Part shown: piece by piece, positions 21,759-27,560 of the stretch | How the letters are laid out: every line of letters begins with the position of its first letter | Position numbering within the stretch: position 1 is the first letter of the stretch | Position numbers and translations under genes: made by a program | Notes under the pieces: model-generated | Seen by the model: only the letters and a program-made list of their open reading frames with translations | Database searches by the model: none | What the model was told of the DNA's origin: nothing | From: Lentisphaera araneosa HTCC2155 | Lineage (GTDB): Bacteria; Verrucomicrobiota; Lentisphaeria; Lentisphaerales; Lentisphaeraceae | Assembly (NCBI RefSeq): GCF_000170755.1 | Contig: NZ_ABCK01000007.1 | Location: forward strand, 62,001-126,000 | Length of the DNA stretch: 64,000 bases | Direction: 5' to 3'

Positions 21759-22820
21759 ATGAAAATTGCTATGCTTCTTTCGGGAGGGGTGGATAGCTCC
21801 GTGGCTTTACGCCTTCTCAAAGAAGAAGGCGGTCACGAGATCACGGCCTTTTACCTCAAGATTTGGCTTGAAGATGAACTCGCTTTCCTCGGGGAGTGCC
21901 CTTGGGAAGAAGACATGCAATACGTGCGTGCAGTCTGTGAGGAACTCGATATTCCTCTGCAGGTTGTGCCACTTCAAAAAGAATACATGGATCGCGTTGT
22001 TTCCTACGTTTTGGCTGAGCTCAAACAAGGTAGAACCCCGAGTCCAGATATTCTCTGTAATGAGCGCATCAAATTCGGTGCCTTTTTCGATGCGATTGAC
22101 GAAACTTACGATAAAGTGGCCACGGGTCACTACGCTCAAGTTCAAGAAAATGAAGAAGGCATTTTTGAATTGCTCCGCGCTCCCGATCCAGTTAAGGATC
22201 AAACCTATTTTTTATCTTCTCTAAGTCAGGCTCAGCTCTCACGTGCTTTGTTCCCCATTGGTTCATTGATGAAGAGTCGTGTGCGTGAACTCGCTGAAGA
22301 ATACGATTTACCCAATAAAGTCCGCAAGGATTCACAGGGGATCTGCTTCCTCGGCAAAATTTCTTATCCCGACTTTGTTCGTTTTCACTTGGGTGAAAAG
22401 CAGGGCGATATCATCGAAATTGAAACGGATGAGAAAAAAGGCGAACACAAAGGCGTTTGGTTTCACACCATTGGTCAACGTTCAGGCCTCGGCCTCTCAG
22501 GTGGCCCTTGGTACGTGGTTAAAAAAGATTTGGCGACCAACATTGTATATATCTCCCACAAAAATGGTCTGGAAGATCAGCTTCGCGACGAAGTCACTGT
22601 CAATACAGTGCACTGGACTTCAGGAAAATTTCCTAAAAATACCAATCTCAAAGTAAAACTCCGTCATGGCCCTCAACTCGTTGAAGCCCGCATCATGGAT
22701 CTCGGCGAAAGTCGCGTTTTCATTAAGCTCGCTGAAAAAGATAAGGGCATTGCCCCAGGTCAATCCTGCATCTTTTACGACGACCTCATCTGCCTCGGCC
22801 GCGGAGTTATAGAAAAATAG
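21759..22820 (+). CDS. mnmA: tRNA-specific 2-thiouridylase MnmA
   Basis: ATP-dependent thiolation of U34 in tRNA-Lys, -Glu and -Gln. The PP-loop SGGVDSS is at residues 8-14, the first catalytic Cys is in LCNERIKFG and the second in QGICFLG; the C-terminal beta-barrel ends with LGRGVIEK. 353 residues is normal length. It lies 3 bp after aspS with AGGG upstream of the ATG. Its TAG stop forms the first bases of the downstream structured repeat. Confidence 0.97.
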   Translation: MKIAMLLSGGVDSSVALRLLKEEGGHEITAFYLKIWLEDELAFLGECPWEEDMQYVRAVCEELDIPLQVVPLQKEYMDRVVSYVLAELKQGRTPSPDILCNERIKFGAFFDAIDETYDKVATGHYAQVQENEEGIFELLRAPDPVKDQTYFLSSLSQAQLSRALFPIGSLMKSRVRELAEEYDLPNKVRKDSQGICFLGKISYPDFVRFHLGEKQGDIIEIETDEKKGEHKGVWFHTIGQRSGLGLSGGPWYVVKKDLATNIVYISHKNGLEDQLRDEVTVNTVHWTSGKFPKNTNLKVKLRHGPQLVEARIMDLGESRVFIKLAEKDKGIAPGQSCIFYDDLICLGRGVIEK

Positions 22821-23278
22821 AGTGCTGAAAGCACGCCATGATTTAGCCTAGCTCGTGAGAGCTAGAGAATGTAAATAACTGATTATTAGTGAGTTCTGAA
22901 GGAACGGCATAGAGTTCGATAAATTAAATCAACATACTCAGGCAGAGCCGCTGTGGCGCGGGGTTTTGATATGTATACAAAACGGCACTTCTCACTACAT
23001 GTTTAAAAGTAAAATAGTCACGAGCAGAGCTGGTTGAGATGCCGACTAAATAGAGTGCTGAAAGCACGCCATAACTTAGCCTAGTTCGTGAGAACTAGAG
23101 TCTGTATATGGCCTATAATTAGCGAGTTCCGAAGGAACGGCATAGAGTTCGATATATTAAATCAAAACACTCAGGCAGAGCCGCTGTGGCGCAGAGTTTG
23201 GATATGTATACGAAATGGCACTTTTCTATACATATCCTCATAAGGTGTATACAAAACGGCACTTTTCTATACATATCC
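22818..23278. repeat. Two-copy structured noncoding repeat with covarying hairpins
   Basis: Copy 1 (22818-23000) and copy 2 (23051-23237), offset 233 bp, share a series of short hairpins in the same order: GTGCT-GAA-AGCAC; a 7-bp stem capped by GTGA (a GNRA tetraloop); GTTCT or GTTCC-GAA-GGAAC; a GCC/GGC stem; and a terminal hairpin. In copy 2 the last is an 11-bp perfect stem GGATATGTATA/TATACATATCC. The GNRA stem is CTAGCTC/GAGCTAG in copy 1 and CTAGTTC/GAACTAG in copy 2, a compensatory change. A partial third copy of the terminal hairpin is at 23244-23278. No coding frame is apparent. This is the main content of the 638-bp gap after mnmA; the remainder to 23458 is A/T-rich leader of the next gene. 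Confidence 0.8.
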
Positions 23279-23458
23279 TTGTTTATGAATGATAGAGAGT
23301 TATTTATTAGAACTCGAAAATATTGTATTATTTAAGCCTTAAGTGTTTAGACTGGGTGATGGTGATTTAGATAAGTGATTATCAATCATAACAACAGGCG
23401 ATAGTGTCGTGAAATGCACTGAGCCTGATTCTAAATTTTCTATAGGACCTTCTGAAAA

Positions 23459-26437
23459 ATGAAACAATGGCTCACACTCACTTTGATGCTAGCAAGTTTA
23501 CCTAGCTTTGCCCAAAAACTCGAAAAAACTCTTTATTCTGATCATACGAAAACGCCTTGTCCAGCCGTCATTGCCGCTTCGCCTTATGGTGATGTCTTTG
23601 TTGGTGTGGATCAACAGGGTTCTTTAGGCAAAAAAATTAACATGGGGGTGATTAAACGCCTTCGCGATACGAATAATGACGGCGTTGCGGATCAAGTCAC
23701 AGATTATGTGACGATTGATAACCCGCGTGGGATTGTTTCTATTGGAAACAAATTGATTGTCCTTCACTGTTCTCAAAAGGATGGCAAAGTTTATGGCCAA
23801 GATATTACTGTGTTTACGGATGCAGATAATGATGGTGTGGCTGATGGTCCCGGAAAAATTCTCGTCAAAGGCATTGGCAATCCCAAATTTGTCCAAAGTC
23901 GTGGTGCGGACCACTGCACAAATAATATTCGCTTAGGTGTTGATGGCTGGCTCTATATTTCTGTAGGGGATTTCGGCTTTGTTGATGCAGAGGGAGCCGA
24001 TGGCAAGAAGCTCACTTTTTACGGTGGTGGAGTGGCGCGCGTTCGTCCCAATGGTCATGAATTAGAAATGTTTATTCATGGGACGCGAAATGTTTATGAT
24101 GTGGCCATCGATCCCTTTATGAATGTCTTTGCGAGAGAAAATACCAACGATGGTGTGGGCTGGTGGGTTCGCTTCAGTCACTACATTCAATCGGGAGAAT
24201 ATGGTTATCCCTGCTTGTACAAAAAGTTTATCGAAGACATGGTCCCTGCCTTGGGCATGTATGGTGGCGGTTCTGGTACGGGTGCCCTTTTCCTTCAAGA
24301 GCCCTCATGGCCTAAGGAATACAATAATAAGCCTCTCATGGCGGATTGGGGGCGATCAATGATTTTTATTCATGATGTAAAAGCCGATGGACCTTCTTTT
24401 ACAGATCAACCTAAAGATTTTCTCAAAGTGTCTCAAGTCGCTGACTTGGATGTGGATGCTTCGGGTAGAATGTATGTGGCTGCTTGGGCAGGTGCTGGCT
24501 ATAAAGGCAATCCCCAAAAAGGTTATGTTGAACGCTATGTGCCCGAGGGCTGGGAATACAAAGCTTTCCCAAATTTAACAAAGGCCTCTAAAGCTGAACT
24601 TTTAGCTTTTATAGATTCTGAGAGTTTTACCGCACGTATTTATGCACAGCAAGAAATTTTAGCGCGAAAAGATCAGGCTTACCTCAGTGATTTAAAGCAA
24701 TTGGCGAAGTCCGCAAAAACACTTGAAGCACGTGTGGCAGCTGTTTATACTTTGGCACAATTAGGCGAAAGTGCGGCTTTTAGTCATTTAGAAGAACTGA
24801 GTCAAGATAAAGATCTTCGTGAGCATGCGATTCGCCTCATGGGAGATAGAGAAACCTTTAATCAGAAAGCCGATGTAAAGTTAATCGCTCAGTACTTACA
24901 AGATGAGAATCCTCGTGTGCGAATTGCCGCAAGTGTGGCTTTAGGCAGAATCGGCAAGCAGCAAGTTGCCGATCAATTATTGACTTTAGCAAGGCCTCCT
25001 CAATCACAAATGAAGAAAGAGAAGAATTTCACTAATTACACGTCTCCCAAAGTGACTTATAAGAATTCTTCAGTGGATATTAAAGTGGATCTTAGTCAAT
25101 ACAGCGTTCTTAATCTCGTTGTTGATAGCCTTGGGAACAATGGTGGTGATCACGCGGCCTGGGTTGACCCAGTTATTGAGCTCAAGAACGGTGAAAAAGT
25201 TGATCTCACAAAAGTAAAATGGGAAAAAGCGAAAGGTGGCTGGGGCAAAACTTTAGTGAATAAGGATTGCCGAGGTCAAGAACTTAAAAATTTGAAAAAG
25301 GAGTCTATAAAAGGAATTGGGACTCACGCTCAATCGAGTATCGTATACAAGCTTCCTAAGGGAGCGAAGTACTTCACGGCTAAAGGAATGATCAGTTTAG
25401 GGGCTCACAAAGAAGCCTCAGTCAAGTTTATCGTGAGTTCAGAAGCGTCAAAAAATTCTAAAAGCTCAAAAAATACTCCGACAGTTTGTTCCACACCTAA
25501 TCCCAGCATTATTATTCCTCATATGGCTCGCCAAGCCTTAGTGAATCTCCAAGCATATGAAGCCGTCATTAAGGGCTTAAATAGCGCGGACAAGAAGCAA
25601 CAATCTGCAGCACTCAATACAATGAAGTTCATGCATGATAAACTTATTGTCGATGCCTTGATTGAACGTTTAAGCTCCGCAGATGAAGAACTGAAAATTC
25701 AGATCTACAGCGTGCTTATGCGTCTTCAGCAAAAGGATGTGGACTGGGATGGCAGCACTTGGTGGAGTACGCGACCAGATCCGCGCGGCCCCTATTTTGA
25801 GCCCACAAGCTGGGAACAATCGAAACGCATTGCAGAAGTGTTGAACAAGTATTTAGCGAGTCATTCGGGCCAAAAACGTCAGGTCATAGAAGCTGAGGTC
25901 ACAAAAAATCGTTGCAATTTAGATGGCAAAGTACAAAGCACGCAAGATCAGAAGCCGAAAAAAGCTGGTGATGTGAAAGTGGGCAAATCGGCTATCGAAG
26001 ATGTGGTGATTTACTTATCAAAACATAAAGGCAATAAGAAAAAGGGTAAGGAAATCATCAAAACCGTGGGCTGTATTGCCTGCCATAATATTGCACATGG
26101 ACAAGTCATCAAAGGTCCTGACCTCACAAAATTAGGAAAAATGAGCAAAGAAGCCTTAGCTGAGTCCATTCTTAAGCCTGGTGCGAGTATCGCAAAGTCT
26201 TGGGTGACTATTCAGATGAATGATGGCTCAAGTCATTTGGGGACGCTGGTAAAAAAGGATTCCAAGCAAGTTGTTCTCCATAATATTGCGGGGATCGCAA
26301 CGAAACTCGATGCAACGAAAATCAAAAAAACTGAACCTGGGCTCAACATGATGTCCTTGCATCTAGTCGATGGGCTAAGCTTACAGCAATTTGCCGATTT
26401 AATTGAGTACCTCAAGTCAATGGATTCTAAAAAGTAG
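23459..26437 (+). CDS. PVC-type haem-binding protein: propeller, HEAT repeats, NPCBM and cytochrome c domains
   Basis: 992 residues with a signal peptide (MLASLPSFAQ). Order: a beta-propeller of the glucose/sorbosone-dehydrogenase type (~20-360, with Ca-binding-like DTNNDGVAD and DADNDGVAD loops and RGADHCTNNIRLGVDGWLYI); HEAT-like repeats (~370-510); an NPCBM carbohydrate-binding module (~520-660, with DSLGNNGGDHAAWVDP and IGTHAQS); more HEAT; and a C-terminal cytochrome-c-like domain with CIACH (~871) and a distal MMSLH region. Such proteins are typical of planctomycetes and lentisphaeres; they are thought to bind polysaccharide and oxidise sugars in the periplasm, but none is well characterised. 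Tandem repeats directly downstream contain degraded copies of its 3' end. Confidence 0.9.
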   Translation: MKQWLTLTLMLASLPSFAQKLEKTLYSDHTKTPCPAVIAASPYGDVFVGVDQQGSLGKKINMGVIKRLRDTNNDGVADQVTDYVTIDNPRGIVSIGNKLIVLHCSQKDGKVYGQDITVFTDADNDGVADGPGKILVKGIGNPKFVQSRGADHCTNNIRLGVDGWLYISVGDFGFVDAEGADGKKLTFYGGGVARVRPNGHELEMFIHGTRNVYDVAIDPFMNVFARENTNDGVGWWVRFSHYIQSGEYGYPCLYKKFIEDMVPALGMYGGGSGTGALFLQEPSWPKEYNNKPLMADWGRSMIFIHDVKADGPSFTDQPKDFLKVSQVADLDVDASGRMYVAAWAGAGYKGNPQKGYVERYVPEGWEYKAFPNLTKASKAELLAFIDSESFTARIYAQQEILARKDQAYLSDLKQLAKSAKTLEARVAAVYTLAQLGESAAFSHLEELSQDKDLREHAIRLMGDRETFNQKADVKLIAQYLQDENPRVRIAASVALGRIGKQQVADQLLTLARPPQSQMKKEKNFTNYTSPKVTYKNSSVDIKVDLSQYSVLNLVVDSLGNNGGDHAAWVDPVIELKNGEKVDLTKVKWEKAKGGWGKTLVNKDCRGQELKNLKKESIKGIGTHAQSSIVYKLPKGAKYFTAKGMISLGAHKEASVKFIVSSEASKNSKSSKNTPTVCSTPNPSIIIPHMARQALVNLQAYEAVIKGLNSADKKQQSAALNTMKFMHDKLIVDALIERLSSADEELKIQIYSVLMRLQQKDVDWDGSTWWSTRPDPRGPYFEPTSWEQSKRIAEVLNKYLASHSGQKRQVIEAEVTKNRCNLDGKVQSTQDQKPKKAGDVKVGKSAIEDVVIYLSKHKGNKKKGKEIIKTVGCIACHNIAHGQVIKGPDLTKLGKMSKEALAESILKPGASIAKSWVTIQMNDGSSHLGTLVKKDSKQVVLHNIAGIATKLDATKIKKTEPGLNMMSLHLVDGLSLQQFADLIEYLKSMDSKK

Positions 26438-27560
26438 CTTTTCTGTACATTTAAGTAGAGATGAGAAAATGAAAAGTTTTAACCACGGAAAATCACAAAA
26501 AGACACAGAAGGTTATGCGATCTAAATGGAAAATAAAAAAGTTCATTTATAATTTTAATCATCCCCTATTTTTGTGTTTTTCTGTGCTCTTTAGTGGTTC
26601 TTTATCCTGGCATGGTTATAATATTTGCTGAATTTAATTGAGTACCATTAAATCAATGGACTACTAAAAAGTAGATCTTCTGTACACTTAATATGGAGAT
26701 GAGAAAATGAAAAGTTTTAACCACAGAAAATCACAAAAAGACACAGAAGGTTTTTGTCTCGAAATGGAAAGTGAAAAAGTTCATTTATAATTTTAATCAT
26801 TCCCTATTTTTGTGTTTTTCTGTGCTCTTTAGTGGTTCCCTAACCTGGAATATTTATAATATTTGCTGAATTTAATTGAGTGCCTTAAGTCAATGGAGTA
26901 CTAAAAAGTAGATCTTCTGCACACTTAATATGGAGATGAGAAAATGAAAAGTTTTAACCACAGGAAATCACAAAAAGACACAGAAGGTTTTTGTCTCGAA
27001 ATGTAAGTTGCCTATAGTTTATTCACCGACTGCTTTTGTGTTTTTCTGTGCTCTTTAGTGGTTCCCTAACCTGGAATATTTATAATATTTGCTGAATTTA
27101 ATTGAGCGCCATTAATTCAATGGACGTCAAGAAAATAGTTTTTCTGTACATTTAAGTAGAGATGAGAAAGTACAATAAATGAAAAGTTTTAACCCCAGAA
27201 AATCACAAAAAGACACAGAAGGTTTATGTCTCGAAATGTAAGTTACCTATAGTTTATTGACTGACTATTTCTGTGTTCTTTAGTGGTTCTTTATCCTGGC
27301 ATGGTTATAATATTTGCTGAATTTAATTGAGTACCATTAAATCAATGGACTACTAAAAAGTAGATCTTCTGTACACTTAATATGGAGATGAGAAAATGAA
27401 AAGTTTTAACCACAGAAAATCACAAAAAGACACAGAAGGTTTTTGTCTCGAAATGGAAAGTGAAAAAGTTCATTTATAATTTTAATCATCTCCTATTTTT
27501 GTGTTTTTCTGTGCTCTTTAGTGGTTCCTTAATCTTAAATATTTGTTATGAGGGTTTTGA
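26438..27560. repeat. Five tandem ~215-240-bp repeats carrying an imperfect palindrome
   Basis: Five units fill the 1155-bp gap. Each contains a palindromic core starting AACCAC..AAATCACAAAAAGAC and ending TGTGCTCTTTAGTGGTT: 26481-26599, 26719-26837, 26956-27063, 27191-27288 and 27408-27526. The cores are imperfect inverted repeats (AACCAC at one end, GTGGTT at the other). Between cores each unit carries a degraded copy of the 3' end of the preceding gene (TTTAATTGAGTACC, ATCAATGGA, AAAAAGTAG), so the duplicated unit spans gene tail plus palindrome. Units 2 and 5 are nearly identical; units 3 and 4 have a shortened, altered centre. Units are too long and too palindromic for CRISPR. Confidence 0.9.

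Follow-up and report, generated by a model that had tools for sequence, protein, structure and literature searches.

The hairpin repeat behind mnmA in Lentisphaera araneosa HTCC2155 belongs to Acido-Lenti-1, a family of unknown role filed in Rfam as an sRNA gene (RF01687), and our analyses argue strongly that it is in fact a REP-like mobile DNA element, whose single-stranded hairpins would be recognised and moved by transposases of TnpA-Y1 subclass 1.2. It also seems likely, with somewhat more reserve, that Acido-Lenti-1 as a whole is the bipartite DNA recognition end of these enzymes and not an sRNA, that is, a further kind of REP system that is built on an IS200-like enzyme, occurs in at least ten phyla and serves in addition as a target for group II introns. 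Since the motif brackets a family of single-stranded DNA transposases across at least ten phyla, a mobile DNA hairpin is a likelier explanation than an RNA. The motif itself was already known in 2010 and it is its link to a transposase that appears to be new; in the open-access literature searched, we found no paper linking Acido-Lenti-1 to a transposase.

The window, by which we mean the whole stretch of 64,000 nucleotides that was analysed, carries the features listed in Table 1. The stop codon of mnmA abuts the first copy of the motif, and the two copies 233 bp apart that the earlier note had described are indeed present, each held in a direct-repeat unit of 186 nt. On the plus strand of copy 1, hairpin H2 reads GTGCT-GAA-AGCAC (22822-22834) and hairpin H1 reads CTAGCTC-GTGA-GAGCTAG (22848-22865), while in copy 2 the latter has become CTAGTTC-GTGA-GAACTAG, so that the compensated C-G to T-A change seen by the earlier note in the GTGA-capped stem is confirmed. 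A second, degenerate H2 follows each copy. The 11-bp perfect terminal stem (GGATATGTATA/TATACATATCC, 23200-23237) and the partial third copy (23246-23279, 94% identity) are likewise real. The repeat is nevertheless a composite: its treatment as one element stands for 22821-22866, 23054-23099 and their degenerate H2s, which alone belong to the dispersed family, and fails for the GTATAC hairpins at the 3' end (about 23200-23279). The latter form a separate, local 41-bp tandem hairpin repeat, of which two to four units stand behind mnmA in both congeners; among the own-genome matches listed it gave only its self-match, with no dispersed copies seen. Elsewhere in the window, a 238-bp unit occurs five times in tandem between two genes (26389-27544; TRF score 1450).

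Table 1. Features at and downstream of mnmA, in window coordinates (R1, covariance model described in the text)
Feature	Position	Strand	Remarks
mnmA (tRNA 2-thiouridylase)	21759..22820	+	353-aa ORF; 94-98% identical orthologues in two congeners
Acido-Lenti-1 copy 1 (H1 - linker - H2)	22821..22866	-	RF01687 60.1 bits, cut-off 37; R1 61.3 bits
Degenerate half-element, copy 1 (linker + H2 only)	22893..22915	-	RF01687 partial match, 16.4 bits
Acido-Lenti-1 copy 2, compensated C-G to T-A in H1	23054..23099	-	RF01687 59.6 bits; R1 64.8 bits
Degenerate half-element, copy 2	23126..23148	-	RF01687 partial match, 18.0 bits
Direct repeat unit 1, holds copy 1	22815..23000	.	repeat comparison
Direct repeat unit 2, 87% identical, 233 bp downstream (start to start)	23048..23233	.	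repeat comparison
Two GTATAC hairpins (11-bp stem + 34-nt partial repeat)	23200..23279	+	separate local repeat; after mnmA in two congeners too

Both window copies exceed the curated gathering threshold of RF01687, which rules out the new class of structured RNA that had been proposed: the core of the repeat is Acido-Lenti-1, published as a candidate RNA, without cis-regulatory role, from Acidobacteria and Lentisphaerae (Weinberg et al. 2010, PMC2864571). Further copies, as anticipated, are abundant: the genome contains 124 matches with E of at most 1e-3, far more than there are tnpA genes. None of the 124 overlaps an ORF (at least 120 aa, simple calls), and at 49 intergenic sites the neighbouring genes are convergent in 22 cases and divergent in 7. 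Both strands carry copies, some repeated in tandem every 67-115 bp or at longer intervals, others facing each other head to head as inverted pairs only a few nucleotides apart; a 92-bp unit of the form H2-spacer-H1-linker-H2 recurs across the genome. Near the window copies promoter-like sites are not above chance, and in both copies H2, read on the minus strand together with the T-rich stretch behind it, has a terminator-like score. A dispersed repeat of about 110 bp (C7:5047-5160; L067:2548-2660), with dozens of copies here and in genome G041, seems to have no relation to the motif.

From two copies alone, selection could be argued only thinly; the case for it comes from the genome-wide copies. 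Folded as single-stranded DNA, the 49-nt cores give z of about -3.5 to -4.1 on either strand. Among 53 non-redundant own-genome copies, 94.5% of cells are paired, double-sided changes affect 12 of 13 pairs, and the covariation score is 0.595 against 0.207 in shuffles, none of 500 shuffles being as good; slid controls collapse. The structure is thus under selection, as the earlier note had maintained from the window alone, and pairing is retained in copies elsewhere, both in these 53 and in 123 distinct copies from many phyla (96.2% paired, in an alignment that was fitted to the model and hence leans towards the structure). On Rfam's strand A.C mismatches outnumber G.T mismatches by 34 to 3 in the own genome and by 87 to 39 in the wider set. 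Read on the opposite strand, these mismatches are G.T/G.U wobbles, and the own-genome hairpins are there often capped by a GNNA loop (H1) and a GAA loop (H2). The working strand is probably the one opposite to Rfam's, the same that the earlier note had read, the mismatch counts being suggestive, as the copies are related and do not represent independent events. Depletion of G-U pairs was considered as proof of DNA and dropped, because the opposite strand carries the wobbles and the observation bears on the folding strand, not on RNA versus DNA. A conserved structure and a transcript are in any case not mutually exclusive.

The transposase partner can be recognised in the own genome. Sixteen genes match PF01797 (Y1_Tnp), four of which are tnpA genes of subclass 1.2, the others of the four being 35-51% identical to the first. 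Two of them (C1:416938 and C6:22056) lie inside motif arrays, each with its own stem variant, a third (C38:5601) has weaker motif copies on its flanks and the fourth (C4:303782-304216) has no motif on its flanks, which makes three of four motif-flanked genes in the subclass versus none of the 12 other Y1_Tnp genes (Fisher P 0.007). The flanked proteins reach 55-61 bits against NF033573 (IS200/IS605 transposase; cut-off 55) and 23.8 bits, far under the cut-off of 80, against the REP_Tyr_transpos model. Their HUH and Tyr residues align with IS608 TnpA structures (sequence profile match, E 5e-13), and they carry DH[VI]H (NHIH in one), WQ and Y-x-x-x-Q-x-x-H-H, which together make up the signature of TnpA-Y1 subclass 1.2; H56, H58, W99, Q100, Y119, Q123, H126 and H127 are invariant in 39 proteins. 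This subclass was described as low in copy number, without REP, generally without typical IS200 ends and found mostly in Cyanobacteria and Bacteroidetes (Quentin et al. 2018, PMC6006769).

The same association recurs in other species. We examined 80 foreign tnpA loci, taken from one-per-species genomes and picked by protein alone, with a covariance model (R1) trained solely on own-genome copies. At E below 0.01 and with fragments set aside, 78 of 103 matches lie at most 500 bp from tnpA, in 7% of the DNA (P 7e-68), and a motif is placed near tnpA at 45 of the 80 loci. Going by record titles, these include Bacteroidota, Chlorobiota, Planctomycetota, Verrucomicrobiota, Kiritimatiellota and Lentisphaerota as well as Acidobacteriota, KSB1, Hydrogenedentes, Nitrotoga and sulfate-reducing lineages. 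An iterated model (R2) finds a flanking motif at 75 of 80 loci, a count less independent than that of R1 since R2 was trained in part on R1 matches near tnpA; five loci have no motif above threshold, and at 52 of 79 the motif stands on both sides. The nearest upstream copy is on the '-' strand in 65 of 67 cases (median 60 bp from tnpA) and the nearest downstream copy on the '+' strand in 56 of 60 (median 55.5 bp). Inverted motif copies therefore bracket subclass 1.2 tnpA in at least ten phyla. Across whole genomes the two also go together: of 115 drawn evenly from the phylum, 10 have both, 4 tnpA only, 2 the motif only and 99 neither (Fisher P 8e-10), and RF01687 was found in 31 of 40 tnpA-bearing genomes searched versus none of 14 well-known control genomes.

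The earlier note had left the choice between an RNA and a mobile or single-stranded DNA element, and it is the second branch that the linkage to subclass 1.2 tnpA strongly supports, whereas the first has no positive evidence here. At C34:40232, two congeners can be aligned with this genome over both neighbouring genes and the ends of the intergenic region, and both lack a motif-bearing segment of about 300 bp, the matched flanks being about 43 and about 70 bp apart in the congeners versus about 360 bp here; the flanks of this filled and empty site have diverged, so that the insertion boundaries are approximate. The motif after mnmA is also absent in both congeners (MnmA 98% and 94% identical), and the site is not a clean empty one because in them a different sequence fills the space from the stop codon to the shared hairpins. 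Another candidate empty site, C7:4823, was uninformative, having a multicopy sequence as its flank. A Tannerellaceae MAG (G006) contains many MITE/REPIN-like derivatives, symmetrical and about 200 bp long, whose inverted ends are those of its tnpA locus, and G051, a genome of the same class in a single contig, has more than 100 dispersed motif copies. In G006, most of the motif-bounded elements of about 200 bp (L204-L221) occupy the middle of a different palindromic repeat (..TCTCTTA / TAAGAGA..), which hints that a certain target is preferred. In G051 (L242-L251), many of the Acido-Lenti-1 copies are enclosed by a larger element, whose borders are formed by the inverted repeat GTAATCGGTCACCCATTGAGAA.

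The motif is also visited by group II introns, of which the genome has 29 3' ends. In one subfamily, whose 3' end reads ...AGTCTTCCCTACCCTTAT (L262-L275, L285), the motif's linker and H1 (TAGCC...) follow directly after the intron end in nine copies, which places the insertion point between H2 and H1, on the opposite strand from Rfam's; two further copies lie beside an H2. A sister subfamily (3' end ...AGCTTTCCCTACCC) has no copies in Acido-Lenti-1 in this genome. Hairpins such as attC are used similarly by group IIC introns (PMC7923331).

Taken together, these observations fit a model in which H1 and H2, two small hairpins with a conserved linker of about 12 nt between them, would be recognised as single-stranded DNA by a Y1/HUH transposase, whose gene sits between inverted copies, some 55-60 bp from each of its ends. 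By homology with IS608 TnpA and TnpA-REP, the subclass 1.2 enzyme would bind the motif as single-stranded DNA and cut beside it, and, like the TnpA of IS200/IS605 and TnpA-REP, would presumably excise and copy motif-bounded segments through single-stranded intermediates. Non-autonomous tandem, inverted-pair and MITE-like copies, whose distribution and lineage-specific presence are as reported above, would have spread by this catalysis through intergenic DNA. In the window, one copy may have landed right behind the mnmA stop codon and then been duplicated with its flank.

Could Acido-Lenti-1 be a genuine sRNA after all, close to tnpA as an element-borne regulatory RNA that controls, for example, tnpA expression? 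Strong covariation suits RNA as well as single-stranded DNA, the mismatches become G-U wobbles, which RNA tolerates, on the strand opposite to Rfam's, and ISPpu9 in Pseudomonas is regulated by sRNAs (PMC8450116). We nonetheless hold this improbable, given that both strands carry copies, arrayed in tandem or inverted and far more numerous than tnpA, that promoter-like sites at the window locus do not rise above chance, and that the motif stands inverted and at a fixed place on either side of tnpA, as transposon ends do. A little less probable still is a passive role, in which the motif, as a terminator or similar hairpin, offers a safe harbour for the insertion of Y1 elements and group II introns alike, the linkage then reflecting the choice of target and not the recognition of cognate ends. 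That an intron subfamily does insert in the motif, the terminator-like score of H2 with its T-rich sequence and the 22 of 49 sites between convergent genes would all agree with such a role; yet insertion at one hairpin would leave direct halves and not inverted whole motifs placed symmetrically at about 55-60 bp from both gene ends in many phyla, different tnpA genes of the own genome carry different stem variants, and genomes without tnpA mostly lack the motif.

REPs can be co-opted for mRNA 3'-end stability or termination. A repeat selected for such a function in the host, here for the mnmA transcript, with its spread being incidental, would agree with the position of copy 1 against the stop codon, but this is very unlikely indeed, as both congeners, with 94-98% identical MnmA, have no motif there. 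We accordingly retain the reading of the motif as a mobile DNA element with TnpA-Y1 subclass 1.2 as its partner.

How does this system relate to those already described? It shares the two-hairpin motif of RF01687, well over the gathering score, and departs from its filing as an sRNA gene in that our results favour a DNA element that belongs to a transposase and the mismatches suggest the opposite folding strand. With TnpA-Y1 subclass 1.2 it has in common DH[IV]H, WQ, Y-x-x-x-Q-x-x-H-H, a length of about 150 aa and low copy number, whereas the 2018 description has no REP and inverted motifs here flank 75 of 80 loci with R2 and 45 of 80 with the independent R1. The likeness to REP, REPIN and RAYT (TnpA-REP, class 2) lies in high-copy extragenic palindromes in arrays and inverted pairs, and in a low-copy Y1 transposase flanked by its own palindrome variant. 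However, GT[AG]G at the 5' foot of the hairpin is absent from the motif consensus and the listed flanks, the motif is a bipartite two-hairpin unit, and the class 2 Y-x-x-x-NP is replaced by the class 1, IS200-like Y...Q..HH; as both the GT[AG]G foot and the class 2 transposase are missing, we regard the system as a variant of the REP/RAYT kind and not a member of it. IS200/IS605 elements (IS608, ISDra2) have the same catalytic domain, HUH/Tyr residues and subterminal DNA hairpins, but the tnpA genes here are divergent singles (35-51% identical to the first) and not multi-copy, near-identical IS, and the ends are inverted repeats. Finally, short gene-less elements with the same inverted ends (about 200 bp in G006, head-to-head pairs in the own genome) recall REPINs and MITEs.

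The finding would join two orphans, an RNA family of unknown function (Rfam, 2010) and a transposase subclass described as lacking a cognate DNA element (2018). Acido-Lenti-1 is reportedly associated with introns, and a motif doubling as a group II intron target would, if our reading is true, explain that association; the motif would then offer these introns a plain route to safe landing sites. Copies near Tannerella protease genes have been suggested as possible regulators of them (PMC13298647), and this and other annotations of an 'Acido-Lenti-1 ncRNA' would need rereading, while the substrate of subclass 1.2 enzymes would become testable in vitro.
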